Shown in pieces: positions 28,998 through 54,952 of a DNA stretch of 64,000 nt; the first letter of the stretch is position 1, and every line of letters starts with the position of its first letter. The stretch is from Rhodosporidiobolus odoratus (Eukaryota; Basidiomycota; Microbotryomycetes; Sporidiobolales; Sporidiobolaceae), in NCBI GenBank assembly GCA_034387635.1, contig JAOANU010000031.1, positions 62,001 to 126,000 on the forward strand, read 5' to 3'. The position numbers and the translations under genes are program-made. The notes beneath the pieces were generated by a model. The model was not told where the DNA came from, did not search any database, and saw nothing but the letters and a program-made list of their open reading frames with translations.

Positions 28998-31900
28998 TTA
29001 GGTGAGCCGCTTGCAATCTGTGGAAACAGAATGAAAATGAGCAACGACGTGAGGTGGTTGAAGAAGACCTCGGGGAAAGGGAGGTACAATCGGAGAGGAG
29101 GGAGGGACGGATGGGAGGAGAGGAGAGGAGATGAAAACGTACAGTCGAGATTACCGCTTGGGTTAAGAGCCCACTCGGGCATGGTTACAGTCTTACCACT
29201 GGCTCCAAACAGTGCGAAGGTGGCCACGAAAACCTGCAAGACAAGGTCAAGTCAGGTCTTGCGACTTCGAGAACGTGGGTTAGGCACATCACGTACCATG
29301 AACTGCGTGCCACCGTCAAGTGCTGCAGAGAGAAGGTAGTTGTATTTTCGGAACCAGGTGGCGCAGTAACGACGCAGGTAGAATTGCGAGAAGATGGCGA
29401 CGAGCATGGTGGTGAACACGGAGCTGTAGATCACCATCGAGTCAGCAGTGTTGGACAACGGGATGGCGGGCGTTGGAAGACGTACGAGTTGATACCAACC
29501 GACAAATAGCCCAGGCACCAGCAGGTGATAGGGGAGCAGAACTGGTCGAAGCGCATCTTGGGGAAAGCGCGGTGCAGGAAGTAGAAGGGAACGGGAACGG
29601 CGAGACCTACGCGATGGAACAGGGTCAGTGGCGACGCGCTAGAACGATGCAGGGCGGAAAATCTGGAGGCACACTGTAGATGGGAAGGAAAGGAAAGAGG
29701 GTAAAAACGAACCAATCACGATGGCAATGGGGATGATGAAGTAAGTTGAACCCGGGCCGTAGAAGTGCTTGGCGAGTGCACCCCAGGCGATAGCTTGGGA
29801 GTTGAAGGATTGAACTTGTTGACCGGACCTGGATGGAAGGGAGAAAGCGTCAGTTAAGAAGGTCGAAATTTATATGCGCGCCGACAGCTCACCAGATGTT
29901 GGAACCTTGCACGTCGAGCAGGATCTCGCGCTGGGCACTGATCACAGACTTCATGATAACCAACTGAAGGATGGCGCCGACAACGGTGCCGAGACTCTGG
30001 ACGAAGAGAGTGACGCGAGGGGGAAGCTTCGTGTATCTGCAGATGGGACGGAATAGTGTTAGACCGAGAGAATGAGACAGGATGACCAGGTACCCCCGCC
30101 CGTCCAAAGCATGCTGTCAAGCAGCGGAGGGGCAAAAAAGGAAGAGGGACGCACTGAGCCATCTTCAGATCGCGAGACAGAGCAAGGGATTGAGCGGTGG
30201 AGTTGTACCCAAAAAGGGTAAAGTACATGTTGGCTTGCGAGTTGCCCGGAACGAGGGCAGCCCCGAGCATTTGTGCCAACTGCTGTACATCGGTTTTGAA
30301 CCTGCACCGAGTCAAACCGAAGTTGAATTTCTTTCGGGCAGAGATGGGTTTTAGCCGAACGAGAGAGGAACTAACCCTGCCACCGCGTAGATGACGGTCA
30401 CGAAAGGAGCCATAAACATGGACAGGATACTGCCAAGGCGAACGAAACGATGAGTAGGTGGCAAAGGAAAAGAAACGAGAGGCGAACGCACAATGCGACG
30501 ATGAGAGCCCACCAAGGAAGTTGCGATCCTCCGGTGTAGCACACTGCCATGGCCATAGCGAAAGAGCCGAGCATGATACCGCCGTATACCCACATAGGGA
30601 CCTCCTTGTACTTCCGCATGGACTGCAGAAACAACGTTAGCAGGTATGCGATGTCTGGGAAGGTACGACACACGCACCTGGAAGTGAGGGTCATCGATGG
30701 AGCGGTCCCTGAACGCCTTGAAGGCGTTGAGCATAGGGCGCCAGTACCAAAGACCAACGTGGCTGTAACGTTGACAAAGATTAGCTCTTGCCGGGAACAG
30801 AAAGGCAGCTGTGCGAGGCTTACGTGAGAGTAGCACCGATGGAAAGGTTACAACCGAGGTAGTAGATAGCTACAGGGAAAAGAAAGTTCAGCCATGTGCG
30901 CTAGGCCAGAGTCATATGCGGGAGAGAAGACGTACCGTTCGAAGCGGCGTACCACGGGAGACCTTGCTCTGCCAGCGCGGTCTCGTTGAGCGAGTAGTCG
31001 GCGTTGAGGATGGTGAGTTGGTCGTACTCGGTGCCGTTCTCGTAGAAGAGTTGCTGAGAGAGGAAGGGGAAGTTGTCCGCTTTCCAAGCTCCGGTGTGAT
31101 ACATGGTCGTGAAGAGAATGCAGCAAAGACCGACACCGATGTACTGCGAGACTTGCGTAGTGAAAGGCGTGAAGAGAGCGCCCTGTCGCACGACGATGTC
31201 AGCGAAAGAGCCGGCATGGAACTGTGAGGAATATCAGGCGTACGAGGGAACCACCGCCGGATCCGATGTACTGCATACACAGCGCGTCGAGTCAGCGCAC
31301 TGGATTGATATGTGATGAGGGAGATGGCAGGCTTACGTTCCAGTCGAGGCAGAGAGAGAACATGCCGAGACCTTCGTTACCGTTGGACCCTCCAAAGATG
31401 CGAGTGACCCACGCCGAGTCACGACGAGCCAAGCAGAAGATAGAGATACCGGTAAGGGTCGGCGCGAGGAACTCGGGGATCCATTGCCACTGTAAGGGAT
31501 CGAAATGTGAGCTCGGCGGTCAATCGAGGAGGACTGAGTTCCGGAACGTACCACAAAGATGGCGATGAATACGATCCAGAAGAATCGAAGGCGCTTCTTC
31601 TGGTTGAGAACGTTCTTGTCGCGGTGAAGCGCGTCGAAGAGATTGACGGTCGGGATAAGGTTGGGGTAGACGATGTAAGTCGGGAAAACGCAGAAGGAGC
31701 GCATCAATCCGGCAATACCATATCCGAACAATTGGGACGCCATCAGCGTGAAGATGCAGACGCCCCAGTTAGGGGTGATGTTGTAGTACACTGCATGGGG
31801 CCGGAAGGTGATCAGCGGATGGCCATGCTGATTGAGAAGGTCAGGGGGCACGTACGCTCGTCAGCGGCGAAGACGGAGATGGCCTCGGCGGAGGACGACG

Positions 31901-32819: not shown

Positions 32820-34247
32820 GGCGGTCGGTGCGTGTGAGTGAGCGAGGAAAGAAGAAGCGAGAGAGCTGCAAAGGAGGAAGAAAGCGGTGCGCGAGCGAGA
32901 TGAAGACGTCGTCCAGCGTCTGAGCAGGCGGTCCGCCCGGCGCCACCCGTGATAGGACCCGTAGCATGCGGTTCCCTCAACGGCTACACGCCGCTTGAGT
33001 CAATCTTGCTGGAGGATTAATAGCAAGCCGCGCGGTGGAAGGTGAAAAGGGAACTTCCCCAGAATGACAAGGAATTGTTAGTTCAGGGCGTTTCCGCCGA
33101 ATTAGCTTCGGCCACTTCCCGCTGGAAGGCAAGTCGCGATATGGCGCCAGCCCACCGGCGTGCTCGCCCACAGCCCGCTCAAGCTACCAGAAGAGCGCAT
33201 GGTCAGCGTCTCTGTTTACTTCGCAGGCGCTGTTGTACAGGTCCGGGAAGGCCGTGAGAGCCGCGCGCCCAGTGTTTAGGATAGCCGGTAGCGAGCCTCC
33301 TTATCGCCGGGTTTCGAAGCGGGGAATGGCGGGGTCGAGGAGGATTGAGCAGTGTGGTGAGAACAGGAAGGACCGCGATTATGGGAAGGCTGGCGCCTTG
33401 CTGTCCAGCCGGCGATAACGTGAATGATGCCTGCCGACGGTACCCGTATCGGCTGCGACGGGTTGAGCACGCTGCCATCCCTTTTCTCCGGCGATGCGGC
33501 GTCTTTCGTTCTCCTCGAGCTCGCGGGCCGCGCATGCCACCCGGTAGTGCAGACCGTCCCACTCTTCCGGTACGCATGTAATAGAGACTGACGACGTGCC
33601 CACTGACCTCCCCGTCTTGCCGAGAGGAGGAGGAGCCTGGGCTGCAGGGGAAGACTGTAAACACGCGGTTCCATTTTTCTTGCCTCGAAGCCTGAGCGGG
33701 GGGAGCGGATCAGGCGTACGGACTTCAGCGGAACCTTCAGGGCGAACTCTGGTCGGGTCTGGCTGCCATATTTAGGCTTGTCATCCTGGAGGCCCCCTCC
33801 TGGAAATTCGAAAGTGCGTCGCAGAGAAAAAAACTTCGAGAAGTCGTGCTGGTCTGCCCGACGATATGTCGTAAGGCGGGCCGGCGTTGGGCAGTGCCGA
33901 GTCGTAGGTCGGAGCCCGAAGGTGCTCCCTGGCCATTGACCGGCGGCAACAAGTGCAAGTTGATTCGACGAAGGTGCGGAGCTGAAATGGCGGACGAGAA
34001 AAGGTACGGTATTGCCTTGCTTGCGCAGAGCCCGCTACGAGGGCCGCAGGCCCAGAAAACGCAAGTGAAGCGCATACAGCAGAAGATACAAAGCTGAACA
34101 GCATCTCGACTACCGCAAGAAGCGTCGCAAGCGGACGGACTCGACTTTCTCCACCTTTTTTCATCTCCGCTCGAGTCATACCATTGTCTTGTCCCGGACG
34201 ATTCAGCTCCTTTGCAGTCGACTATAGTAACTTCGAAAGCTAAGCGA
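32820..34247. other. intergenic region
   Basis: About 1.4 kb: promoter of the OPT gene on the left and 3' flank of the TPR gene on the right. Overlapping open frames at 33200-33670 and 33740-34345 look random. No RNA or repeat recognised. Confidence 0.4.
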
Positions 34248-37200
34248 CTAAGCCTTTGTTGCCTTCGTACTCCGTTTGTAAGCTGCATAGCGCTCTTTGG
34301 CCCAAGAAAGGGCCTCCTTCGCTGGTTGACAATCCGGCCATTCACTCTCGAGGTAGCGCAGGTCTGCGGGACGCGAAGCCGGCCTCAGCAAGGACAGCAG
34401 GGCAGAGAGCAGAATGACGGAGCACGTACCGGCAAAGGCAGCCTTCCAGTGATTCGTCAGCGCAAGTGCCATGCCGCGACGGTAAAGGGCCTTGATGTTC
34501 TTCGGTTCGTAGAAGAGGGCGATGGTGCAGTCGCAGATGGCTTCCGAGTATCTGCAGCGCGTAGAACTGTCAGCAAGAGCGAAAACGCGCCGAAAAAGAA
34601 GGGATTGACGTACTGGACGGTAGTGCCGAGCTTCATACGAGCAGCGGCAGAGTTGCTGCAATAGGTCGGCTCGAGGGGATAGATGATAGACGCGGTAGTG
34701 AACGAGACTATGGCCTTCTCGAACTCGCCGGCCGCAAAGTGCTCGTTCCCCTGTCAAGCGAACGAAAGGTCAGCGAATGCCAAGCTCAAGGGAGAGAAAA
34801 TGGATTCAAAGCTCACCCTCTGCTTCTCCTGCTCAGCCAAGTCCCGACTGAACGCCATCCCACTCGCCCTCGCCTCCGAACTAAGCTCCAATAGCCTCCC
34901 CCAAGCCTGCAACGGACGCCTCTCCTTCGGCCCTTCCTCCGAACCATCCAGCACCCCTTCCGCCACCCCAAACTCGGCGATGATTCCCTCTCGCTCTCGA
35001 GCACCGAGTCGGAGGGCTGATTCAAAGGTCCGGACGCCGCCTTGCCATTCGAGCAGGGTGGCGATGTCTTCGGCGAGAAGGAGCGGGTCGCGGAGGACTA
35101 GACGATCCATGGCGGCGTCGAAGGCGTCGGAGAAGGCGAGGAGGAAGTCTTGCACGACGTATTGACGGGAGAGACCTTCCCATTCATGACCAGAGAGTTT
35201 CTGCGGAACGCGAAAAGTGAGCTCCACTACGAAGCGCAGAGATGCCATTGAGCGGAAGGGAGAGCAACGCACGTGCTCCCTCAATTGTACATGCGCCCAC
35301 TTCATGAACTTCTGATGATCCATCTCGGCGAGGTCGATCGGAATTTGCCGGTCAAGCTGCTCGCAAGCTTCAAGGCGGTGACGCGCTTCGCGGAGGATGT
35401 CGAGGTGTTGACTAATCTTGCAGATACAGAGGTCTCCGAGAGTGGCGCGCTGTGATCACCGAGCTAGGTCAGCGACACCTCGAAGGGTGAGAAAAAGGAA
35501 GGACAGAAAGAAGGCAACGCACGAGAACGTCGACAAGCTTCTGCAAGCTAATTGCGAGAACCCTCTGACCCCAAGCCTGTACAGTCGGGTAGTTGACCGA
35601 ATGCCACAGCCCTCTCTGTTCCGCCACCCCGAGCCAAGTGTCCATCTCTTTCGGTTCGCCAGCATTGGTAGTCATGCGGCCCCCCGCCAGAAGGTAATTC
35701 TTCGCGAGAGTGTCGCGGACAAGGGCAAGGGCGGCCGGGAGGGAGCCGATGAGCTCGTCTGCGCCAGTTGAGTGCAAGTCAGCATGGACCGGGCAGAAGA
35801 GCCGGCGTCCGAGACCAGGGGAAAGAGGGTCCAAACACTCACATTTGAACCCAGCTAAACAAGTCTCATAAAGCAACTGATCCAACTCTGCCCAGATGTC
35901 ATAGTTCGGCCCTACCCCGGTACACCGATCGGGAGGACAACACTTGGGCGGCGGGGACCTCGACAGGGTGATACTCTGCTGTTGCTGTTGTTGAACGTAA
36001 GGACTGGCTGCAGAGAGGGAAGGGTCGGTAGCGGTCGCGTTGGCGGACTTTTTCTTCTTCTTCTTTTTCTTCTTGGTCGTGGTGGTGCCGTTGCCGTTAC
36101 CAGCGCTGGAGGTATTGGTCGTCTCGTTCAGAGGCGTAGTAGATTGTGGAGGTTGGGCATCGGTAGGAGGGAGAGCCACTTCAGGCGGATCGTCGCAATC
36201 GTCGTTGTCATCCTTCGTTGACGATTCGAGAGGCACGAGGTCCGGTAACGAATCGCTGCTCTTCTGTCTCGCAAACGAGGGCGACGAGTCTGCGCCTTCC
36301 TCAGACTGGTACGGTCGCGGTCGGGGCTTTGGCGTAGCCGGCTTTGGGGTCGGAGCTTGCGGAGGCAACTCCTCGAGGTCAGGCGTTGGCTCCGCCGAAA
36401 CGCTCCTCGATCTCCCAACGCTGGCCGCCTCCTGCTTGGCGTCAAGCAGCGGAGGCATTGAATCGCTCGAGCTGATCGAGTCGCCTCGTTCCATCCTTGC
36501 CGAAGACGACGTATGAGGAAGCGGTTCGAGGTCGGGCAACGAGTTCCCGATACTTGTCCTTCGCCGTCCGCTCGGCGCAGCGTCGTTCACAAGAGGCGGC
36601 ATCGAGTCTGTCGATTCTTGACTAGGACTGCGCTGCATCACCGAGCTGGTTTGCGTGGAAGGGGTCGTCCTCGCCGAAGGGAAGTTGAGCGGTTCGAGGT
36701 CGGGTAGAGACGCGGTGGTTTCGATGCTCGCGCTTCTTGACCTTAGCTCGGGCTCGGGCACAGGTTCAGGGTGCGAGGAACGAGTCTTGGTGGGGGTGAA
36801 CGTGGGGAAGTCTTCTAGGGAGGGCATCGAGTCGGTAGACGATGAGCGAGACATCGCGCGTTCGACGGGAGGGGCAGTCGGGGATGCTGACGAAGAGTCG
36901 GCAATGTACGGAATGAGGGGAGGCGGCTCATCGTCATCTCCTTCCTCTCCTCCTTCGTGCATCTGCGGTTGCGCCTCAACCCTAACCTCAACCTCAACCC
37001 TCACCTGCGTCCCCTTTTCCCCATCTTCATCCCCCGACCCACTGCCGCCAAGTCCCCTTCCGACCAACTCCTCTCTCAATCGTTCCTTCCTCTCCGCCCT
37101 CCTCTGATGCGTCAGATCCAACATCTCTCTCGCCCTCGAAAGTTCGCGCTGTTCTGTCTCAGGCCCAGGCGGCGCAGGTGCGGATCCTTCGGCGGGACAA

Positions 37201-39285
37201 GCGCTGCTCCAGGTAGCAGCAGCTTCGGCTGCGCATTGAGGGCAGCACTCGGGGCAGCAGCAGTCAGTTACTGCCGAAGCTGCTTCCGAGCGCGGGCGGA
37301 GCTTGCTACCCTTCGCTCTCGGTGCGCGACGTGTGCGGCTAGGGGAGGCGGCAGAGGAAGACGTCGACGGTGGCGCACGCTTCCGGGGCACTTGCAGCCC
37401 GGAAGACGAGTTGGGAGGAAGTATCGGAGGAACGGGCGAGGAGCTGCGAGAGGAAGCCGGAGAGGGAGCGGGGGAGAAGTCACGGAGGCGGGCGTAGCGG
37501 GACTGAGTCCGCTGTGAGGTGGTAGGAAGGGGAGGGGCGGTGCCGCGGATCTGTGTGTGTGGCAAATTTCAGAACAGCCTGCCTGAAGGCGGTCAGTAAA
37601 CAGACGCACCTTCATATCGCCTGCTGCCACCCCAACGGCTTTCCCTTTACCCTTACTCTTCGCCTTCGCTCCGCCAGACGGTGCCGCCGCAGCGTCTCCG
37701 CCTCTAGGTGCCCTAGGTGCGTTGGCTGCAAACGGGTCGACGGGCGTATCGAGAGTCGGCAGCAACCCCAGCTCCTTGCTCGACCCAATCACGAACCCCT
37801 TCTCCTCCTCTCCCTCCTGCTGCGACGGCGTTTCCGTTCCCACAGGCGGAACTTGGGTCCTAGTCAACTTCCCTCCCTCAACCTTGACCCCAACCTGAGC
37901 CAACGCCCTCTCCTTCTCCTGTCTCTCCCTCTTGCGCCTCGCATCTTCCTCCTCCTCCCTCGCCTGCAACTCCTCCACCTGACCCTTGACCGAGTCCCTC
38001 TCATCCAGCGCCTTCTCGAGCCGAACCTGGAGAGCCTCCGCTGCTTCCTCCTTCCCCCTCGCAGCTTGTACCTCTTCCAACGTCGACGGAGGCGGCAACA
38101 GACTCGGTGCCGTCCCCGCCCCGGTCGAACGGTACTCGAGCAACAACGCCCTAATCTTGGCATCCAACTGCTTGAGCTGCCCCCGCTTCGACTCGAGTTC
38201 CTTGGCCCGCTTCTCCCGAGCTTGTTTCTCCTGCACTCGGAGCCGGACCCTCGCGAGTAACTCGGAGGGTTTCCGCGCCGCGCAAAAGTCCATGATGGAG
38301 ATGAGGTTGTCCCCTCCCGCTTCGCCAACGCCCAACAACCCCCTCGTCGCTCCCGCTCCAAACTCGACCTCGAAATCCTCCGCGACGAGTTGAAGCAGCT
38401 GCAGAGGCTGAGAGATGTTTTCGAGGAAGATGTAGTACTCTTCGGCAAAGTCGCGGGCGGAAACAAGTTCCTCCGCGAGTTCGCGAAGAAGGGTGTGGTA
38501 CGCTGCGAAGGCTTTGCGAATCTGTGCGCGCCAGGTTGATGGGGTTTTCCAGTGAGACCCGGTGAGAGCGCCGCGGGTGATGAGGTTGCTGATGGAGGAG
38601 AGGAGAGGGGAGCAAGATGGAGGTGGGCGGGAGGGGCAGGAAGGAAAGGCTGATTTGAGAGGCGCAGATTGCAGGAGGGAGAGACCGGTCGGGGTGAGAA
38701 GGGTGTGGAGACAGGGTAGAGGAGCGTTCTTCGAGGTCTTGAGCTGTGGATAACCTCGACGTGAGCTGGACCCCGCACTTGAATGAAGACAGAGACATAC
38801 CTGACCGACAATACCTTCGTAGACCATGCTCACCGAGCTTGAGAAGCCCGTCTCTCGTAGACTGGTAGCCCAGGCCTCATCCTCCGCCTCAAGCGCATTC
38901 TTGACCACGCTACGAATCGCTTCCCTCCCAAAGTCGAGGTTCCTCTTGTTATTGACTTCGTGCGGAAGACGACCTTGTTCGAGGCCGGTGAGAATCCAGG
39001 CATCGACTGCAGGATGATTGACAGGGTAGAAGGATAAACGGCTTGATATGGGAGGAACAACGCACTCGTTCCACTGCTTTCGACCCAATCAAGCACCTCG
39101 CTCACACCCAGATACCTCAGACTGGTACCAAAGAAGGTCTGAAAGAGGGCGCTGAGAGCTTGAGCGACCTGGTCGTGCAAGGGATTGCCTGAAGCGGGGA
39201 GAGGAGTGTTGGGAGAGCGGCATCGTTCTGGGTTGCAGATGGGGTCCCGCCCGAGACCAAAGGGAAGGGGCGGGCGGGTGGCCAT
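34248..39285 (-). CDS. very large TPR-repeat protein with repeated short acidic motifs
   Basis: I read one gene from ATG 39285 (MATRPPLPFGLGRDPICNPE) to the stop at 34248, roughly 1,400-1,500 residues. In order: an N-terminal helical region (VAQALSALFQTFFGTSLRYL); a region with LREDF-type helices (RKAFAAYHTLLRELAEELVS); a coiled coil at about 38260-37900 (QEKQAREKRAKELESKRGQL onward); a disordered Ser/Pro/Glu-rich middle with CCCPECCPQC, lysine and glutamine runs and seven DSMPPL/SLPDLEPL-type motifs; KCCPPDRCTGVGPNYDIWAE; a helical region; and C-terminal TPR repeats (GNEHFAAGEFEKAIVSFTTA, then YSEAICDCTIALFYEPKNIK). TPR plus coiled coil suggests a scaffold or co-chaperone-like binder. Function is unknown and the family not recognised. 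Introns such as 37611-37552 (gtgcgt...cacacag) link the halves in frame. Confidence 0.7.
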
Positions 39286-40131
39286 ATTCGATGGAACAGC
39301 GGTCAGGGTCTGTGGTAGATGGAAGAGGCGATGGGTGGAGGGAAGGTAAACAAAGTAGTCAGCGTTGCTGTGGGTTGATGTTGTCCGCGGCTTGAACATG
39401 CACCCGTGTTTCTCTCTGGCGAGGGCGTGTCTGCTGGGCCCGAGGGTTGTATGGTACCCTCTTTGGCTTTAATGGCAGTTCGCTCCACTCGCTGGACCGG
39501 CGTCGTTCGCCTGCCTCGTGCGCAAGGGACGGCAACACATGGACCAGACGAAAAGGGAGCTTACCTAAGAGCCTGTGTTGCTGCCCTGGTCCTCAAGGAG
39601 TGTTATGATGAAGCGGAAGTGGTGATCGACTTGAAGCGGTTCAACCACACCTCGTCCAAAGTTACTTGCAAGATCAGCGAGGGTTATTCGGCGAGCCGGA
39701 TGGATCCAGTTGACTTGATTGGGCTAGCAAGCCAAGAGAAGTTGAAATCGAGTCCGGGATGAGCTCGAGGGGGGAGGGGGGAGAGAGACCCGGGGGCTAC
39801 TCGCTCTTCCAACATCTGCCTCTGCAATGCCCAAGGTGTGTACATGCCCTCTACACGCTCAGCTACACTGCCTTACCTCCGCCCCGCCCGCTCGAACGCC
39901 TCGCATTCACTTTGATCCAATCGTTCCTCATCTCGACTCGACTCGACCGTCATATCTCGCCACTCACACCAGATAAGGTTACAAGCAGTAACACAGCATA
40001 CTGACTACCCTTCTCTCCGCCATCCCTCATTTTCGCCTTGCCTCCCTGGGTCACATAGAACAAAGGAAAGGTCCGCCCACCCTCTTCCCTCTCTCTCCCA
40101 TCTTGACCTCCGCTGACGCCTTCCTGCTGCC
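39286..40131. promoter_or_regulatory. divergent promoter region of the TPR and eIF1A genes
   Basis: About 850 bp between two start codons. The right half is CT-rich, as expected for the leader of a highly expressed translation gene. An open frame at 39406-39762 has no recognisable domain and is not called. Confidence 0.4.
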
Positions 40132-40974
40132 ATGCCCACTCGTGCATCCCCATCGGTCGAGCAGGGAGGCAAGAACCGGAGACGTGGAAAGAACGAGAAC
40201 GAGAACGACAAGCGTGAACTCGTCTTCAAGGAGGAGGGCCAGGGTGCGCTTCACCCTCCCTCTCTTCCTTCCACCTACCCCGTTCCCCTTCCCCCCTTCA
40301 GCTGGTGACTCGAGCTGAGAACTATTGCACGTGACCGCAGAGTATGCCCAGGTCCTCAAGATGCTTGGAAACGGTCGTGTCGAGGCCATGTGCTTCGACG
40401 GTGAAAAGCGTCTGGGTCACATCCGCGGCAAGATGAGGAAGAAGGTGCGCACACTCGTTCCTCCTTTACCCCGGTCGGTCTCTGGAGGCGGGCAGGGACG
40501 AGTTGGCGAGGAGTAGGAAAGGCCAAAAAAGGAGGGAAAGCTGATCAATCCTCTTCTACGTTTGCCCCGATAGGTCTGGATCAACCAGGGTGACATCGTC
40601 CTTATCTCCTTGCGTGAGTTCCAAGATGATAAGGCCGATGTCATCCAGAAGTACTCCGCCGACGAAGCTCGTAAACTCAAGCAATACGGCGAACTTCCCG
40701 AAACGGCCAAGATCAACGAGACCGATACGTTTGGCGGAGAAGACGGTGACGACGGAGTTGACTTCGGAGAGGTCAGCGGGGAGGACGAGGATGAAGACGA
40801 AGGAATGCAGCAACCCAACTACGATGACTTGGATATCGTGAGTTCCTTGTTCTTTTGACTTCCCTGGAGGGTCTGGAGGTGCTCCTAGCGTCAATATGGC
40901 TATTTGCGGCGAGTCTGTGACTTCTTAACTGACCTTGAGTCTTGTTTTTCTTTTTCTTCCAGGACGACATCTGA
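40132..40974 (+). CDS. TIF11: translation initiation factor eIF1A
   Basis: Four exons (40132-40243, 40341-40444, 40574-40837, 40963-40974) give 163 residues. The basic N-terminus contains [20 protein letters not shown]. The OB-fold reads [20 protein letters not shown], then [20 protein letters not shown] and [20 protein letters not shown]. The acidic C-terminal tail ends DLDIDDI; in the eIF1A family this end contacts eIF5B. eIF1A promotes scanning and start-codon selection on the 40S subunit. From position 40655 (inside exon 3, at SADEARKLK) the gene is identical in layout to the 1,227-bp repeat unit that follows, so its last 69 codons, last intron and 3' UTR are the first unit of the array. 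The last exon is only 12 nt (D-D-I-stop). Confidence 0.95.
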
Positions 40975-43900
40975 GGTGTTGACTCTTGGCTCCTTCGGTT
41001 CCCTCCTCCTCCTCTGCAATCTCGCCGTGTATACCTCTCCTTCCTGCCTCCTACGACTTGGACCTGTCCTCCTGCAATCCCGTTTGCAATCTTGCTTCAC
41101 CGGTGACTCGTGAGATGCTCAGAGTTGGTTTGCATTCCGGATTCGGGCTTTCATCCCGCTCAGGCTACTGCGTCTGCAGCCTTGGAGATTTTTGCCCTTG
41201 TTGGCTCAAGGTGTGGGAGTCTGCCTTGCCTGGTAGAGCAAACCCTCTCTGTTGCTTGGTGCGCCAGCACTCGGCGCAAATAACGCTCCCTCAGGTGAAA
41301 GTGTCATCGCAGCGGCAACTACTCGTAGCTGGCGCGCTGTTCTGGTGGGCTACCTCGTCTTCTCCCTCATAGACTAGCAGGATGACAGTAGGTGCGTCGT
41401 TGGAGCAAATCGTGGCTTTCAGCATCCGCCAACAACCTTCTCAGCTTTGTTTCCGCTCGACTCTGGTACTTGTGAGCTCAAACCGCCATTGCCATTCGTG
41501 TCGCAACAAACCGTTTTCATTGATGTATCAAAGACCAGCAAACAGGCTCAAGAGCACGAGCGAGTACACATGCATTTCGTCCGTCAATGACCTTCTCATC
41601 TGTGGCTTTTTCCGGTGAAGGGGCCGGCGGCTCAACCTGTTCTGATCGTCCCAGACCCTACAGAATTCGGTCTTGAGTCTCGGGCACGACTCTGACCGCT
41701 TGAGCGAGTCACAGCGCCAATCAAGCATGAAAGCTACCCTTTTTTCCTGCTCTGTTCTCCCACCGCCGGCTGCTCGCTGCTCGGCCAGTTCGTAGCAGTG
41801 ACATGTCACAGTTCGGTCGCAGCTAAACCTTTATATTTGGCCGCCTGGTATCCACGACTTTTTGTGGGCGGTCGCAGGCATTCCGCCGACGAAGCTCGCA
41901 AACTCAAGCAAAACGGCGAACTTCCCGAAACGGCCAAGATCAACGAGACTGACACGTTTGGTGGAGAAGACGGTGACGACGGGGTTGACTTCGGAGAGGT
42001 CAGCGGGGAGGACGAGGATGAAGACGAAGGAATGCAGCAACCCAACTACGATGACTTGGATACCGTGAGTTCCTTGTTCTTTTGACTTCCCTGGAGGGTC
42101 TGGAGGTGCTCCTAGCGTCAATATGGCTATTTGCGGCGAGTCTGTGACTTCTTAACTGACCTTGAGTCTTGTTTTTCTTTTTCTTCCAGGACGACATCTG
42201 AGGTGTTGACTCTTGGCTCCTTCGGTTCCCTCCTCCTCCTCTGCAATCTCGCCGTGTATACCTCTCCTTCCTGCCTCCTACGACTTGGACCTGTCCTCCT
42301 GCAATCCCGTTTGCAATCTTGCTTCACCGGTGACTCGTGAGATGCTCAGAGTTGGTTTGCATTCCGGATTCGGGCTTTCATCCCGCTCAGGCTACTGCGT
42401 CTGCAGCCTTGGAGATTTTTGCCCTTGTTGGCTCAAGGTGTGGGAGTCTGCCTTGCCTGGTAGAGCAAACCCTCTCTGTTGCTTGGTGCGCCAGCACTCG
42501 GCGCAAATAACGCTCCCTCAGGTGAAAGTGTCATCGCAGCGGCAACTACTCGTAGCTGGCGCGCTGTTCTGGTGGGCTACCTCGTCTTCTCCCTCATAGA
42601 CTAGCAGGATGACAGTAGGTGCGTCGTTGGAGCAAATCGTGGCTTTCAGCATCCGCCAACAACCTTCTCAGCTTTGTTTCCGCTCGACTCTGGTACTTGT
42701 GAGCTCAAACCGCCATTGCCATTCGTGTCGCAACAAACCGTTTTCATTGATGTATCAAAGACCAGCAAACAGGCTCAAGAGCACGAGCGAGTACACATGC
42801 ATTTCGTCCGTCAATGACCTTCTCATCTGTGGCTTTTTCCGGTGAAGGGGCCGGCGGCTCAACCTGTTCTGATCGTCCCAGACCCTACAGAATTCGGTCT
42901 TGAGTCTCGGGCACGACTCTGACCGCTTGAGCGAGTCACAGCGCCAATCAAGCATGAAAGCTACCCTTTTTTCCTGCTCTGTTCTCCCACCGCCGGCTGC
43001 TCGCTGCTCGGCCAGTTCGTAGCAGTGACATGTCACAGTTCGGTCGCAGCTAAACCTTTATATTTGGCCGCCTGGTATCCACGACTTTTTGTGGGCGGTC
43101 GCAGGCATTCCGCCGACAAAGCTCGCAAACTCAAGCAAAACGGCGAACTTCCCGAAACGGCCAAGATCAACGAGACCGACACGTTTGGTGGAGAAGACGG
43201 TGACGACGGGGTTGACTTCGGAGAGGTCAGCGGGGAGGACGAGGATGAAGACGAAGGAATGCAGCAACCCAACTACGATGACTTGGATATCGTGAGTTCC
43301 TTGTTCTTTTGACTTCCCTGGAGGGTCTGGAGGTGCTCCTAGCGTCAATATGGCTATTCGCGGCGAGTCTGTGACTTCTTAACTGACCTTGAGTCTTGTT
43401 TTTCTTTTTCTTCCAGGACGACATCTGAGGTGTTGACTCTTGGCTCCTTCGGTTCCCTCCTCCTCCTCTGCAATCTCGCCGTGTATACCTCTCCTTCCTG
43501 CCTCCTACGACTTGGACCTGTCCTCCTGCAATCCCGTTTGCAATCTTGCTTCACCGGTGACTCGTGAGATGCTCAGAGTTGGTTTGCATTCCGGATTCGG
43601 GCTTTCATCCCGCTCAGGCTACTGCGTCTGCAGCCTTGGAGATTTTTGCCCTTGTTGGCTCAAGGTGTGGGAGTCTGCCTTGCCTGGTAGAGCAAACCCT
43701 CTCTGTTGCTTGGTGCGCCAGCACTCGGCGCAAATAACGCTCCCTCAGGTGAAAGTGTCATCGCAGCGGCAACTACTCGTAGCTGGCGCGCTGTTCTGGT
43801 GGGCTACCTCGTCTTCTCCCTCATAGACTAGCAGGATGACAGTAGGTGCGTCGTTGGAGCAAATCGTGGCTTTCAGCATCCGCCAACAACCTTCTCAGCT

Positions 43901-46792
43901 TTGTTTCCGCTCGACTCTGGTACTTGTGAGCTCAAACCGCCATTGCCATTCGTGTCGCAACAAACCGTTTTCATTGATGTATCAAAGACCAGCAAACAGG
44001 CTCAAGAGCACGAGCGAGTACACATGCATTTCGTCCGTCAATGACCTTCTCATCTGTGGCTTTTTCCGGTGAAGGGGCCGGCGGCTCAACCTGTTCTGAT
44101 CGTCCCAGACCCTACAGAATTCGGTCTTGAGTCTCGGGCACGACTCTGACCGCTTGAGCGAGTCACAGCGCCAATCAAGCATGAAAGCTACCCTTTTTTC
44201 CTGCTCTGTTCTCCCACCGCCGGCTGCTCGCTGCTCGGCCAGTTCGTAGCAGTGACATGTCACAGTTCGGTCGCAGCTAAACCTTTATATTTGGCCGCCT
44301 GGTATCCACGACTTTTTGTGGGCGGTCGCAGGCATTCCGCCGACAAAGCTCGCAAACTCAAGCAAAACGGCGAACTTCCCGAAACGGCCAAGATCAACGA
44401 GACCGACACGTTTGGTGGAGAAGACGGTGACGACGGGGTTGACTTCGGAGAGGTCAGCGGGGGGACGAGGATGAAGACGAAGGAATGCAGCAACCCAACT
44501 ACGATGACTTGGATATCGTGAGTTCCTTGTTCTTTTGACTTCCCTGGAGGGTCTGGAGGTGCTCCTAGCGTCAATATGGCTATTCGCGGCGAGTCTGTGA
44601 CTTCTTAACTGACCTTGAGTCTTGTTTTTCTTTTTCTTCCAGGACGACATCTGAGGTGTTGACTCTTGGCTCCTTCGGTTCCCTCCTCCTCCTCTGCAAT
44701 CTCGCCGTGTATACCTCTCCTTCCTGCCTCCTACGACTTGGACCTGTCCTCCTGCAATCCCGTTTGCAATCTTGCTTCACCGGTGACTCGTGAGATGCTC
44801 AGAGTTGGTTTGCATTCCGGATTCGGGCTTTCATCCCGCTCAGGCTACTGCGTCTGCAGCCTTGGAGATTTTTGCCCTTGTTGGCTCAAGGTGTGGGAGT
44901 CTGCCTTGCCTGGTAGAGCAAACCCTCTCTGTTGCTTGGTGCGCCAGCACTCGGCGCAATATAACGCTCCCTCAGGTGAAAGTGTCATCGCAGCGGCAAC
45001 TACTCGTAGCTGGCGCGCTGTTCTGGTGGGCTACCTCGTCTTCTCCCTCATAGACTAGCAGGATGACAGTAGGTGCGTCGTTGGAGCAAATCGTGGCTTT
45101 CAGCATCCGCCAACAACCTTCTCAGCTTTGTTTCCGCTCGACTCTGGTACTTGTGAGCTCAAACCGCCATTGCCATTCGTGTCGCAACAAACCGTTTTCA
45201 TTGATGTATCAAAGACCAGCAAACAGGCTCAAGAGCACGAGCGAGTACACATGCATTTCGTCCGTCAATGACCTTCTCATCTGTGGCTTTTTCCGGTGAA
45301 GGGGCCGGCGGCTCAACCTGTTCTGATCGTCCCAGACCCTACAGAATTCGGTCTTGAGTCTCGGGCACGACTCTGACCGCTTGAGCGAGTCACAGCGCCA
45401 ATCAAGCATGAAAGCTACCCTTTTTTCCTGCTCTGTTCTCCCACCGCCGGCTGCTCGCTGCTCGGCCAGTTCGTAGCAGTGACATGTCACAGTTCGGTCG
45501 CAGCTAAACCTTTATATTTGGCCGCCTGGTATCCACGACTTTTTGTGGGCGGTCGCAGGCATTCCGCCGACAAAGCTCGCAAACTCAAGCAAAACGGCGA
45601 ACTTCCCGAAACGGCCAAGATCAACGAGACCGACACGTTTGGTGGAGAAGACGGTGACGACGGGGTTGACTTCGGAGAGGTCAGCGGGGAGGACGAGGAT
45701 GAAGACGAAGGAATGCAGCAACCCAACTACGATGACTTGGATATCGTGAGTTCCTTGTTCTTTTGACTTCCCTGGAGGGTCTGGAGGTGCTCCTAGCGTC
45801 AATATGGCTATTCGCGGCGAGTCTGTGACTTCTTAACTGACCTTGAGTCTTGTTTTTCTTTTTCTTCCAGGACGACATCTGAGGTGTTGACTCTTGGCTC
45901 CTTCGGTTCCCTCCTCCTCCTCTGCAATCTCGCCGTGTATACCTCTCCTTCCTGCCTCCTACGACTTGGACCTGTCCTCCTGCAATCCCGTTTGCAATCT
46001 TGCTTCACCGGTGACTCGTGAGATGCTCAGAGTTGGTTTGCATTCCGGATTCGGGCTTTCATCCCGCTCAGGCTACTGCGTCTGCAGCCTTGGAGATTTT
46101 TGCCCTTGTTGGCTCAAGGTGTGGGAGTCTGCCTTGCCTGGTAGAGCAAACCCTCTCTGTTGCTTGGTGCGCCAGCACTCGGCGCAAATAACGCTCCCTC
46201 AGGTGAAAGTGTCATCGCAGCGGCAACTACTCGTAGCTGGCGCGCTGTTCTGGTGGGCTACCTCGTCTTCTCCCTCATAGACTAGCAGGATGACAGTAGG
46301 TGCGTCGTTGGAGCAAATCGTGGCTTTCAGCATCCGCCAACAACCTTCTCAGCTTTGTTTCCGCTCGACTCTGGTACTTGTGAGCTCAAACCGCCATTGC
46401 CATTCGTGTCGCAACAAACCGTTTTCATTGATGTATCAAAGACCAGCAAACAGGCTCAAGAGCAGCACGAGCGAGTACACATGCATTTCGTCCGTCAATG
46501 ACCTTCTCATCTGTGGCTTTTTCCGGTGAAGGGGCCGGCGGCTCAACCTGTTCTGATCGTCCCAGACCCTACAGAATTCGGTCTTGAGTCTCGGGCACGA
46601 CTCTGACCGCTTGAGCGAGTCACAGCGCCAATCAAGCATGAAAGCTACCCTTTTTTCCTGCTCTGTTCTCCCACTGCCGGCTGCTCGCTGCTCGGCCAGT
46701 TCGTAGCAGTGACATGTCACAGTTCGGTCGCAGCTAAACCTTTATATTTGGCCGCCTGGTATCCACGACTTTTTGTGGGCGGTCGCAGGCAT
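40655..46792 (+). repeat. tandem array: five copies of a 1,227-bp unit carrying the eIF1A 3' end
   Basis: Units start at 40655, 41882, 43109, 44336 and 45563 (periods 1227, 1227, 1227, 1227, 1230) and are nearly identical. Each holds the second part of eIF1A exon 3, the last intron, the 12-nt last exon with TGA, a homologous 3' UTR and then about 700 bp found nowhere else in the window. The first unit is fused in frame to the eIF1A gene. The others are headless and follow the unit end ggcggtcgcaggcat. Units 2-5 share changes absent from unit 1, such as Gln-Asn in place of Gln-Tyr before GELPE. Units 3-5 carry Lys for Glu in SADEARK. Unit 4 has a 1-nt deletion at about 44461. High identity implies recent amplification. 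Confidence 0.97.
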
Positions 46793-47110
46793 TCCGCCGA
46801 CGAAGCTCGCAAACTCAAGCAAAACGGCGAACTTCCCGAAACGGCCAAGATCAACGAGACCGACACGTTTGGTGGAGAAGACGGTGACGACGGGGTTGAC
46901 TTCGGGAGGTCAGCGGGGAGGACGAGGATGAAGACGAAGGAATGCAGCAACCCAACTACGATGACTTGGATACCGTGAGTTCCTTGTTCTTTTGACTCCC
47001 CTGGAGGGTCTGGAGGTGCTCCCAAGGTTGACCTGTCTGTCGGCGGCGAGTTTGTGGCATTCTTGACTGACCTTGAGTCTTGTTTTTCTTCTTCTTCCAG
47101 GACGACATTT
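46793..47110 (+). pseudogene. terminal diverged eIF1A 3' end (displaced native tail)
   Basis: A sixth partial copy of eIF1A exon 3, intron and last exon. It matches the array through the first part of the intron (to about 47020), then follows a clearly homologous but diverged sequence. The intron end is ctt-rich and similar, and the last exon reads GACGACATTTAA instead of GACGACATCTGA. The 3' UTR is only patchily alignable (CCGTGTATACC and CTCCTGCAATC are shared). A 1-nt loss at about 46907 (cttcgggagg instead of cttcggagagg) breaks the frame, so it cannot make the tail. Confidence 0.85.
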
Positions 47111-47745
47111 AAAGCGTTGGACCTTGGCTTCTTTCGATCGTGCCGCCCCGAGGTCGACCTCCCCAGCCGTGTATACCACCACGTCTAGTCAGCGCCAACC
47201 TGGAACTTTTCTCCTGCAATCTCGCGCAATCCTTTCGCAAGTTCACTTTCGGGAGAGTTGGGGAGAGTGGCGTTCCAGATGGTGCTTACATCCGGCTCAA
47301 GCCACCGTGTCCCGCAGCGAGCGTGTAAGCGCCACTGCCCTCTAACCCTTGAGCAGCCTTACAACTACCGTATGCTCGAAGCGTCTGACTGCAGCATCAT
47401 TCAAACACGAGAGTCACAGGCTCTTTCTGTTGCTCCGGTCTACCTCATCAAGGCTACTGCACACGAGCCAGGCCACGTGACTGGCCGATTTCGTGGCAGG
47501 GAGCAAGTCAAGTGGCGACAGAGCTTGATTACAAAATAAGCGATGCATCGGCGGTTCCAGCCGCCGCCGTTTCCCTACGCTAGACGAATGTAATCCATGG
47601 CAATACAAAGGGAATGTGAAAGGTTTCAGAGCAAAATGAGAAAGGTTTCGGAGCAGGACGTCAGAATTGACCTTCTCAGATCACGGACCTGTAGCAGCGA
47701 CAGAACGGTCAGTCTTCGTGGGGCTAGAGAGCGGCCTTTATGTCG
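47111..47745. other. 3' flank of the displaced eIF1A tail
   Basis: Non-coding. It includes the diverged 3' UTR counterpart up to about 47310 and then unique sequence to the stop of the thaumatin-like gene. Nothing else recognised. Confidence 0.45.
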
Positions 47746-49110
47746 TCACGCACAGAAAGTGACGGTGTAGTCGGCGGCCTTGGAATGATCGCAAGTCCAG
47801 AGGGCGGAACCGGAAGACTCGTCGTCTGCGAAGACAGGTAGAAAAAGAAGTCAGTGTGCGCCTTCCTACCTTGGGTTACACGTGAACGGAATCGGAGGAG
47901 CACGTACAGGCGTAGGCATAAGCATCCGGACAAGCTGTCTTGAACGTATCATAGTATTCAACCTTGTCCTTCGGGCAAGTCGCGGGCGTGTCATGCGAGC
48001 CACTGCAGCAATTTCCGCTGTCGGCCTGGTTGCCATCGAGGTTGGCGGCGCAAGAGGTCAGGCAGCCGACGACCTCGCCGTAGGAGTTATCGACCGAGAC
48101 TGCGCGGATTTGGGAGGGATCAGGCAGGAATACATTCAAGGGGAAGAAGAGAGACGAACGAGCGGCGGGGCAGTCTTTGTTGATGTTGGTTGGGCAGGAT
48201 GGCTCGTTACAGCCTACATTGTTGGTGACTGTAAGGCAAGAAAGACGACGAGTGGCGTCAGTTTCTAGCCTGACAGCGAAGCGGGAAAAACGGAAAAAAA
48301 GGGGAAAGGTCCTCACTGGCCATCGGCAGGTTGAACCCGTCGACGAGGGAGACATCGTACCAATCGTGACTATCATTGAGATTCCACTCTCCCAGCGTAG
48401 CGGGCGGGACACCTGTACCCCCGACACTAGTGAACGCATGGGTCAGATACGGTGCTCAACGAGTGAAGGCAAGTGAGCAAACCTACGTCGCACATTCGAG
48501 ACCACCGTTGCAGGAGCCAGTTGAGCAGGTGTTAGGGAGGCCCGAACCGTCGAAGTAACAGTCGGTGCGACCCCCTGAATTCGAAAGGCTAAGGTTAGCG
48601 TCGCGAGGAAAAAGATGAAGGACAAAAAAGTATCAGTACTTACACAAGCGGCCGTTCCAGTTCTCAGCTACAGCGGACGACGGACTGTCAGCTAGACATC
48701 ATGAGAAGCCAAGGGAGAAGGCACGTACCGACCTCGAAAGAAACCGAAGAGCCCGCTGCCGCTTCCCAACCTGTCGGATGAGCAGGAGCAGTTCCAGCGG
48801 AAGTGAAGATCGCCTGCGGTACCAGCGGTCATTAGCATGCGCCGAGATGTGTCGAGCCGTGGGGAAGAGAGCGCAAGGGCGCGGAAGAGGAAAAGAGGAA
48901 AAGGCAGGCAGAAGAGAATGAGGCGTACCGGCCAGATAGGGAAAGCACACTGCAGAGACAAGATGCCCAGCGAGTTAGTATACCTTCGCGAGCACCACGT
49001 CCGAGGAAACGACGCACATTGTTCTTGACGGTAAAAGTCCGCTCAGCGCTGACGAGCTCGCTCGTTACGACGGCAAGAACCGCAAGGGAAGGGATGAACG
49101 AGGTACGCAT
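47746..49110 (-). CDS. secreted thaumatin-like protein
   Basis: The signal peptide MRTSFIPSLAVLAVVTSELV is followed by the thaumatin fold: RTFTVKNNCAFPIWPAIFTS, GTAPAHPTGWEAAAGSSVSF, ENWNGRLWGRTDCYFDG, GSCNGGLECATSVGG, ATLGEWNLNDSHDWYDVSLV, DGFNLPMAV, then the cysteine-rich lobe (VGCNEPSCPTNINKDCPAAR, CLTSCAANL, NCCSGSHDTPATCPK) and the end DYTVTFCA. The many paired cysteines and the W-N-G-R-x-W-G-R-T-x-C and acidic residues are typical of the family (PR-5-like, some with beta-1,3-glucan binding or cleavage). At least eight exons. It is expected to be extracellular or in the cell wall. The enzymatic activity of this copy cannot be told from sequence. Confidence 0.9.
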
Positions 49111-49614: not shown

Positions 49615-50147
49615 AGGACCCCTGACACTCCTCAGGAACCCGCGCCGGTTTTAGTACAAAAGACAGGCCACAAAGTCGAAAACGTCGCGCCGCTCTAGGT
49701 ACAAAACCGAGCTCAGATTCGGGGAAAACTCGACATGTCCCGCCGGTCTGGGTACGAAAAAGGGCAATGAAGGAAGCTGAGCGGAAAGAAGGGGAGCAGA
49801 GGAAGAAGGAGAAGAAGAAGTAGGTGTGCAAGTTGTTGGCATGTTCTTCCGCTCTAAGTGTATTGGCAATGAGTTCGTGCAGCAGAAAAGATAGCCATGA
49901 TCAATTATGCACCACGGATGCGAAGGAAGAAGGGAAGGGAAAGAAGGAAAGAGGAGAAACGGAAGAGAAGATAAAGCCTGCGGTGTCAAGCGGCGGTGGC
50001 GGCGGCGGGCGGCCGGAGCGAGCGCCCCGCCAATGTCCCGCCGCTTCGGTACAGATTTCATGGTCAGACAGCGCAGCGGAGGTACAAAATAAGTTGCTCA
50101 AACGCCATTTTCCGGGGCGCGGGTTCCTGAGGAGTGTCAGGGGTCCT
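49615..50147. mobile_element. 533-bp element with 32-bp terminal inverted repeats (MITE-like)
   Basis: The left end 49615-49646 begins aggacccctgacactcctca. The right end 50116-50147 is its exact reverse complement over 32 bp. Inside both ends are short subterminal GTACAAAA-type motifs (about 49654, 49699, 49751, 50078). The interior is purine-rich (49765-49990) and has no recognisable transposase. The size and structure fit a non-autonomous DNA transposon. No clear target-site duplication is visible at the borders, which weakens the call. The right end lies 71 bp beyond the NDUFA2 stop codon. Confidence 0.6.
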
Positions 50148-53551: not shown

Positions 53552-54952
53552 CTACCATCCGCTGCCATCCACCCACCTCTCAGGTGTGGTCCCATACCGT
53601 GCCGCCGTACGACGACTGATCCGAGCCAGAGACCGCATCGAGCCCTCTGGACGCTCCTTATTGCCTCCGTGCTGAGGTCCCAGGGTGTCACTAAGCGGGG
53701 CTGGGTCGACTGTGTCCCCGAAGTAGTGACCGGAGGTATCGAAGAGAGGTGCGGAGCTGTTGACGTGGCTGAACGGGTGCTGCTGAAACATCACACCCTG
53801 CTGTTGGGATGGATGATAGTGGAAGGGGTAGGGAGGGCTGAGAACAACCGGGCTGGGGTAAACGGTGCTGTCGTTGTGTGCGGTCAGGCCCACATGCGGA
53901 TCTGCCCAGTGGAACCCGACTTCCATGCCGACTGGAGCTAATCTTCGGCTTCGTTGGGGGTTATGCTGCTGAGTGCCATTGTTCCACATACTTCCGGCAG
54001 TACCGAGAACGCGCAGACCCTGAGAAGAGATGCCCTGCTCGCAAGATATTGTAAGCGGTGGCAGCGAGGGCAAGCAACATGACAAACAAGGGGTTGTATG
54101 AATGCTCCCACCCAGACCTGTGCATAGCCAAGCAGTCAGTAATACGCTTCTGGGGGTACAAGTACGGAGGAGCGATTGACACACCGGCAAGGGTGCCTCG
54201 CTTGACTCCTGTATGTTGTCCGCTAGATCTTCCAACCCGAAGATGATTCGAACCTTGTCGAGTTCTTCGAGCTGCCCCCATATTTCTCGAAGGACTGACT
54301 CGAGCTGTCGTGCTCCGGTCCAGCGTGGAAGCAAAGGCTCAAGGCGCTGGCGCAATCTCTGAAATGACAAAGGCGCCTTGGCGGGCACGACAAGTTCTGC
54401 TACCGGCTGATTACCCACCTATTACGTTTTGAAGTGCGTGAGCAGCAATAGCCTGGTATTCATGATCAAGCGTAAGGGCTTACCAGGTCTAGGTGATGTC
54501 TGAAAAAGGCGGGTGGTGACGGCTTTGCAGGGTATTTGGGAACTAATCAGCGCGCAATCCCTGTGTATAGCAGTGAACAAGCACACCAGCTTTGCGATGG
54601 CCTCTTGCTGTGAGTCAGGTCTACCCTTTGCCAGTGCTGCTTCCACTTCTTGCCGCACCCCCTTGCAAAGCGTATTGAATTCGGTCCTTTGTTTTGTTGT
54701 CCAATTCGCAGTGTAGGGCGCAGCGATTTTTCGAATCTGTGCGACCCAACGATGAAGGCGGCGGAAAGCGATGGCGCCCAGCTCGGTGGGTGAGGAAGGA
54801 TGCAACACTCTTGAGAGTGCCCGAAACATATTCTTCGGCTCCACGAGCTTCTTCTCAGGTCGGAAGTCGCGGTAACCGGTCAAGTCGGGGTCGCTAGGCG
54901 CATCTCGACTACCTGTGGACGACTCGCCGTGGGTTCGAGTTGTGCTGCTCAT
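53552..54952 (-). CDS. unknown protein
   Basis: Gene model from ATG 54952 (MSSTTRTHGESSTGSRDAPS) through a helical region (NMFRALSRVLHPSSPTELGA, RLHRWVAQIRKIAAPYTANW, KGVRQEVEAALAKGRPDSQQ) to a gtaagc...taatag intron at about 54489-54422. Then comes NQPVAELVVPAKAPLSFQRL and RIIFGLEDLADNIQESSEAP. After a second intron the tail is low-complexity and His/Pro/Ser-rich (YPFHYHPSQQQGVMFQQHPF), ending WVDGSGW. The helical N-terminal half could be a protein-interaction fold. I recognise no family and it may be lineage-specific. An alternative upstream start exists at 55081. Confidence 0.5.

Follow-up and report, generated by a model that had tools for sequence, protein, structure and literature searches.

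The eIF1A gene of Rhodosporidiobolus odoratus appears to have had its 3′ end swapped in the manner of the WHO homing elements, with the nuclease missing and the new end then multiplied by ordinary amplification, a reading to which we assign a probability of roughly 45%. In particular, a diverged eIF1A tail with its own 0.7-kb flank would have replaced the 3′ end of the gene and pushed the old tail downstream, probably when a DNA break near the codons for KYS/ADEAR was repaired, as with the WHO elements, and the swapped-in 1,227-bp piece likely gave rise to five copies through unequal crossing-over in the common exon. The repeated tail would then be the newcomer, a nuclease cut would have begun the swap, and the nuclease gene would either have been lost from the unit or act from elsewhere. 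The same process may also lie behind the partial eIF1A proteins found in Rhodotorula kratochvilovae and Leucosporidium creatinivorum. (The window is the whole 64,000-nucleotide stretch analysed, bases 62001-126000 of contig C31, which is 128,349 bp long and belongs to an assembly of 24.8 Mb in 45 contigs. Coordinates are those of the window unless a contig is named.)

The eIF1A gene continues into a tandem array

The gene has five exons (Table 1), the first of 9 nt and the last of 12 nt; every intron is GT..AG and the spliced translation is complete, ending in DDI and a stop codon. Its identity is backed by protein matches and by a six-frame search of the assembly. The best match of a frame from the headless copies (those without the front exons) is the eIF1A of Rhodosporidiobolus nylandii, whose identity to the window protein is 96% over the front part but drops to 86% over the back part.

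Table 1 Features of the eIF1A locus and its surroundings in window coordinates, with copy starts set by the opening TCC
Feature	Position	Strand	Description
eIF1A gene	39827..40974	+	five exons: 39827-39835, 40165-40243, 40341-40444, 40574-40837, 40963-40974
Unit 1	40655..41881	+	serves as eIF1A tail; native-type bases to 40756, unit-type beyond
Unit 1 body, 700 bp	41181..41881	+	no similarity elsewhere; no recognised protein or RNA family
Unit 2	41882..43108	+	headless chimera
Unit 3	43109..44335	+	headless
Unit 4	44336..45562	+	headless; exon with 1-bp deletion, body with 1-bp insertion
Unit 5	45563..46792	+	headless; body with 3-bp insertion and one substitution
Copy 6, unit-like part	46793..47022	+	headless exon with 1-bp deletion, and intron start
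Different eIF1A tail, likely the displaced one	47023..47320	+	intron remainder, last exon 47101-47112, 3′UTR homologous to that of the unit
Thaumatin-like gene	47879..48442	-	next gene downstream, in part
OPT transporter match	31336..31860

The gene enters an array of direct repeats, with spacings of 1227, 1227, 1226, 1228 and 1229, that comprises five head-to-tail units and a sixth, partial copy. The original prediction had described five near-identical units of 1,227 bp entered from within exon 3. Five units are indeed present, four of them of that length and the fifth of 1230 bp, and the array is entered inside an exon; that exon is, however, exon 4 of the five-exon model, because the latter includes the 9-nt first exon. 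Each unit opens with the TCC of Y-S-A-D-E-A-R; after the remainder of the exon come an intron of 125 nt, the last exon of 12 nt and, beyond the stop codon, a further 907 nt, in agreement with the predicted content (the rest of the exon, the last intron, a 12-nt last exon and about 0.9 kb). The five headless copies all start at the same position, between the Y and the S of this motif. Self-BLAST gave identities of 95.6-98.4% over the long offsets and of 84.3% between copies 1 and 6.

The front exons are joined to unit 1 alone, and no further eIF1A front was listed when the 24.8-Mb assembly was searched in six frames, which bears out the claim that only the first unit is attached to the 5′ part of the gene. 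Copy 6 is of the unit type to about 47022, within the last intron, and there switches to another tail, so that the sixth, different tail said to close the array is present as well. The 1-bp deletions in the exons of unit 4 and copy 6 are frameshifting.

Beyond the stop codon, about 200 nt of the unit are homologous to the 3′UTR of copy 6 (score 46; shuffle maximum 28), and the last 700 bp of the unit have no similarity to the native flank, to the region upstream of eIF1A with the front exons or to the decayed tail described below (60 shuffles each). That the 3′UTRs of the two tails have homologous starts and that the unit body has no match in the native flank or elsewhere argue for a swap. The unit body (41100-41880) is found at five places in the assembly, 99-100% identical and all within the array; an element family in the same genome was ruled out because the body is confined to the array and has no dispersed relatives. 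No Pfam family matched the open or stop-masked frames of the body, which rules out a known protein in the unit, and no recombinase gene was found there, since no protein family matched. An RNA gene in the array was likewise ruled out, with no Rfam match up to an E of 1 across 39000-49000.

The other eight open stretches scanned around the array matched no family, and nothing mobile-looking was found around it in the sequence scanned. A second array of this kind was not seen in C31 (128 kb) or in 30 kb of three other contigs, the latter being without repeats. (C31 does carry an inverted pair of 0.87-kb repeats, 89% identical, at C31:21869-22737 and 34134-35002, and the window holds short exact repeats at 63876-63979 and 49615-50147, 35 bp direct and 32 bp inverted.)

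Searches for a nuclease

In genome searches run exon by exon, which genes with introns or divergent genes may escape, no LAGLIDADG-type gene was found and neither Hom_end_hint nor LAGLIDADG_3 was matched. One GIY-YIG match on C9 scored 23.3 bits (cut-off 22.6), and five TnpB/Cas12f-type matches and one HNH match, all on other contigs than that of the array, fell below the cut-off; the PF05203 control gave a weak signal in one of 14 genomes. (The five TnpB/Cas12f-type matches, at C9:895116, C3:935183, C5:610688, C16:583931 and C6:619905 with open frames of up to 537 aa, are possibly Fanzor-type genes.) An endonuclease gene of the intein-zinc finger type that defines WHO elements was found neither in the unit nor by the genome searches.

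These results support in part the proposal that incoming DNA brought a ready-made 3′ end. The architecture is as proposed: there are two diverged tails, the gene is joined to the repeated one, the other lies headless downstream, and the body of the unit occurs in the array only. As to the agent, neither a nuclease nor any other protein family is recognised in the unit and no convincing nuclease was found genome-wide, which argues against a swap; an unoccupied site was likewise not seen.

Diverged tails and headless starts

Besides the tails of the unit and of copy 6, C31 carries a third, a decayed headless eIF1A tail (hereafter the relic) on the strand of the gene and 48 kb upstream of it, about 8.2-8.4 kb to the left of the start of the window. 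A protein match at C31:53586-53699 marks the relic, which DNA comparison widens to 53591-53821 (74-76% identity). It is interrupted by two in-frame stops, and its splice acceptor has changed. (A young repeat has one end nearby, at C31:53200-53374, matched at 99-100% in seven other places on C5, C15, C10 and C8 and less closely on C1; minus-strand sequence beside it was judged by eye to encode a putative hAT-like transposase. As a carrier of the relic this repeat was rejected, for it stops about 215 bp short.)

The three tails differ by 39-55% in mid-intron and 3′UTR and are 81-92% identical in the branch region, acceptor and last exon. For the latter (40922-40974) the counts are 49/53 between unit and copy 6, 43/53 between unit and relic and 45/53 between copy 6 and relic, with a 15-nt insertion in the relic, and for mid-intron plus the first 206 nt of the 3′UTR they are 145/236, 99/216 and 100/220, respectively. 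The corresponding Fisher p values of 4e-6, 3e-6 and 1e-7 are generous, given that neighbouring sites are not independent, that pyrimidine tracts align easily and that the 3′UTR of the relic is unlike that of the unit (no similarity beyond shuffles). Judged from these alignments, the tails of the unit and copy 6 probably diverged mostly while they were working tails. Such a pattern is expected if both tails worked during their divergence and favours a swap; it argues against the mere decay of a headless duplicate and for either displacement or a formerly complete second gene. (Linkage to the mating type as a source of diverged alleles was discarded, with STE3 on C17 and the array on C31, although these contigs could still be linked.)

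As a further headless tail on the same contig, the relic favours a swap. Two of its features point the other way: it starts 74 nt further in than the units do, within the codons of the fast-changing motif described below, and it has the 1-bp exon deletion of copy 6, a hint that its source was a copy that had lost its head before, and an argument against an independent history. At 40735 and 40756 the relic has the bases of the gene, unlike the headless copies.

Partial eIF1A proteins also occur in other genera. Among 112 proteins found, from which 24 named Microbotryomycete species were counted, a second, partial eIF1A was present in two species, R. kratochvilovae (P0017, 92 aa, besides P0029) and L. 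creatinivorum (P0079, 58 aa, besides P0073); none came from a further named Microbotryomycete among the best 120 of 152 and the best 120 of 400 matches, the sequences of which were inspected in part. Both proteins of the former lie on a contig of 993,725 bp and both of the latter on one of 127,795 bp, and because the contigs are equal in size, partial and full eIF1A likely share a single contig in each species. P0017 differs from the gene of its own species at 3 of 61 residues, one of them within the terminal DDI, and P0079 is identical to its own there. At the level of protein gene models, homology begins at ADEAR in P0017 and at TDEAR in P0079, one residue past the window junction. That the headless copies start at one position and the partial proteins of two other genera at the next residue argues for a swap. 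Note, however, that the ORFs P0107, P0109 and P0141 read as if, in some relatives, an intron ended exactly before (A/S/T)DEAR, the place of the headless starts here, and that P0014 and P0094, ORFs resembling those of R. graminis and R. toruloides, have no intron there and read through the site. A common intron position or acceptor could therefore set the starts in both genera, which speaks against a shared cut site.

The same observations can be read, tentatively but as a real possibility and the strongest rival, as the outcome of an old tandem duplication of the whole gene, with both copies working while their tails diverged, the second then losing its promoter and front exons, gene conversion keeping the exon alike and unequal crossing-over multiplying the first tail. 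A history of this kind requires no nuclease, and none was found; it accounts for the conserved splice signals in both tails and for the chimeric unit 2, and the same-contig partial copies of the two genera could be further decayed duplicates. It does not sit well with the unit body, in which there is no trace of an eIF1A promoter or of front exons; moreover, the relic would require a third complete copy, and several species would have to share the same point of loss, unless its place was fixed by an old intron.

The divergence of the tails weighs against a simple old duplication of the 3′ end alone, with neutral decay of the headless copy, later amplification and nothing replaced. That copy 6 is headless and frameshifted would follow, and the deletion that it shares with the relic looks as if headlessness were old. 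In copy 6, however, the stretch from branch region through acceptor to last exon is nearly intact (49/53) beside noncoding sequence of 61% identity, and the body is not repeated after copy 6, so that we consider this explanation unlikely.

Amplification of the unit

Tandem arrays that arise by unequal crossing-over consist of head-to-tail copies with a chimeric member and homogeneous bodies, and the same is found at eIF1A. Outside the exon, units 1-5 vary at intron site 40905 and by the insertions and the substitution in the bodies of units 4 and 5 (Table 1); the exon holds more variants. At 40672, 40685, 40726, 40735 and 40756, and at few sites beyond, unit 1 departs from every headless copy, which indicates that the native front passes into unit-type sequence near there. 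The change at 40685 (Y to N) is in all headless copies, and that at 40664 (E to K) in units 3-5. In unit 1 coordinates, the 40836-C of unit 2 recurs in copy 6 and in no other copy, and its 40905-T in unit 1 and in no other. The chimeric unit 2 and the pattern of variants fit unequal crossing-over that started from a pair, a unit-tailed gene followed by a headless exon with the other tail; the five-fold amplification thus looks like ordinary unequal crossing-over, and the chimera agrees with the earlier suggestion that homologous exon copies drove it. What plain arrays of this type lack is found here in the differently diverged, apparently once-working tails: those of the unit and copy 6 differ, and a single source tail is not seen.

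The exact order of native front, whole units and native tail, with breakpoints within the common exon and intron, would also be produced by a DNA circle that carried the 1,227-bp piece and integrated Campbell style by homologous recombination in the exon, with no selfish element involved. We regard this as very unlikely, in that it leaves unexplained both the source of the diverged tail and the agreement of headless starts across genera. An assembly artefact is highly improbable: the array rests on the assembly and its copy number is as assembled, but the copies have private variants (because of which assembly stutter is an unlikely source of them), unique sequence flanks the array on both sides and the assembly has 45 contigs for 24.8 Mb.

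A fast-changing patch after ADEAR

Just downstream of the junction lies a motif whose rapid change is a further argument for a swap. In hand-picked rows of 17 named Sporidiobolales and 30 named fungi from outside that order, collected by similarity and so biased to conserved sequences, NETD(T/N)(F/Y)G is kept in 30/30 of the outside fungi, in 7/7 Sporobolomyces and in 1/10 named Rhodotorula and Rhodosporidiobolus; the rows exclude a second strain in two cases, an unnamed Rhodotorula and P0017 and, outside the order, P0079. (Stated for the near-invariant NETDTFG itself, at residues about 21-30 after ADEAR, 9/10 Rhodotorula/Rhodosporidiobolus, 0/30 other fungi and 0/7 Sporobolomyces are changed.) The eIF1A of the window also retains NETD(T/N)(F/Y)G.

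Over residues 21-30 after the start of ADEAR, the mean pairwise difference is 0.58 in Rhodotorula (n = 7) and 0.63 in Rhodosporidiobolus (n = 4, including the window), compared with 0.03 in Sporobolomyces (n = 7) and 0 in Microbotryum (n = 3) and Sordariales (n = 12); over the first 21 residues from ADEAR it is at most 0.032. These differences are ungapped and thus inflated by indels, as is probably so for one Microbotryum front stretch at 0.62. The fast patch is a lead that could reflect either repeated tail change or relaxed constraint. It is conceivable, but in our view doubtful, that Microbotryomycete yeasts harbour at eIF1A an unrecognised, WHO-independent family of selfish elements that replace 3′ ends by means of another kind of nuclease; each round would swap the tail and leave the old one headless, and the family would have driven the deeply conserved motif into rapid change in Rhodotorula and Rhodosporidiobolus.

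Discussion

The described system closest in architecture is that of the WHO elements of Torulaspora and Lachancea, which the original prediction had not named when it likened the locus to a homing element with a carried rescue. These elements are described as homing into FBA1, where they replace the 3′ end, push the former end downstream and form clusters (Coughlan et al. 2020, PMC7282813). There, many FBA1 fragments are reported to start at base 670-680, just past an inferred cut near 668, and where WHO10 has inserted at other loci it has brought a piece of FBA1 along (PMC7282813). The eIF1A locus is similar in having a complete gene with an apparently replaced 3′ end and a differing, likely displaced 3′ fragment downstream, and in having headless 3′ fragments of an essential, conserved gene that occur in clusters and also elsewhere and show a strongly divergent 3′ part. 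The fragment starts fall at one position in the five headless copies and 74 nt further in for the relic, and the other genera agree at the protein level. As to the discordance between 5′ and 3′ parts that would mark a WHO host gene, a protein-level contrast among species was observed.

The locus differs from WHO in its host gene, which is eIF1A in a basidiomycete and not FBA1, in its 0.7-kb unit body without a nuclease gene, and in units that are near-identical copies rather than different elements; cutting is here a candidate step. The likeness to a homing element thus holds for the architecture and fails for the nuclease, which was not found. We therefore do not file the eIF1A locus as a WHO element, because the defining nuclease is missing despite the matching architecture, although the locus may work, or may once have worked, like one.

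Foreign 3′ ends are also acquired in mitochondria, where mobile ORFs are described as creating hybrid atp6, atp9, cox2 and nad3 genes in Glomus (PMC3630166), an atp6 hybrid being known from Allomyces (Paquin 1994, as cited in PMC3630166). The resemblance is that the gene comes to use a foreign 3′ end, with the native one left behind downstream; the eIF1A gene is, by contrast, nuclear-type and spliced with no ORF recognised, and theirs are mitochondrial with an endonuclease ORF.

When phages and other integrative elements that rebuild the 3′ end of their target gene insert, the gene keeps working and its former end is displaced, much as seems to be the case at eIF1A. Here, however, the unit has no recombinase gene and the repeats are part of a coding exon.

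Literature searches returned nothing on tandem eIF1A in Rhodotorula and nothing related on arrays of partial duplications, and eIF1A was absent among the matches listed for a recombinase or transposon at eIF1A. Among the matches listed on homing and gene fragments in basidiomycetes, nearly all concerned mitochondria or organelles, by title, and follow-up literature on WHO, beyond the WHO paper and a commentary, was unrelated by title. The portion of a Sporidiobolales genome paper that was available (PMC12093110) mentions neither 'transposable' nor 'tandem'.

In the parts of the two sources used here, the known targets of elements that swap 3′ ends are mitochondrial genes and, in the nucleus of budding yeasts, FBA1 together with a few further WHO sites (PMC7282813, PMC3630166). 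If the WHO-like swap is the correct reading, eIF1A would be a second nuclear case, in a translation factor and in another phylum, which would suggest that the strategy has arisen repeatedly. It would also explain the fast change in an otherwise near-invariant stretch of the protein, and a nuclease not yet known would be implied. If the old tandem duplication is instead correct, the locus still clearly records, in nature, how tails were exchanged and amplified in an essential gene.
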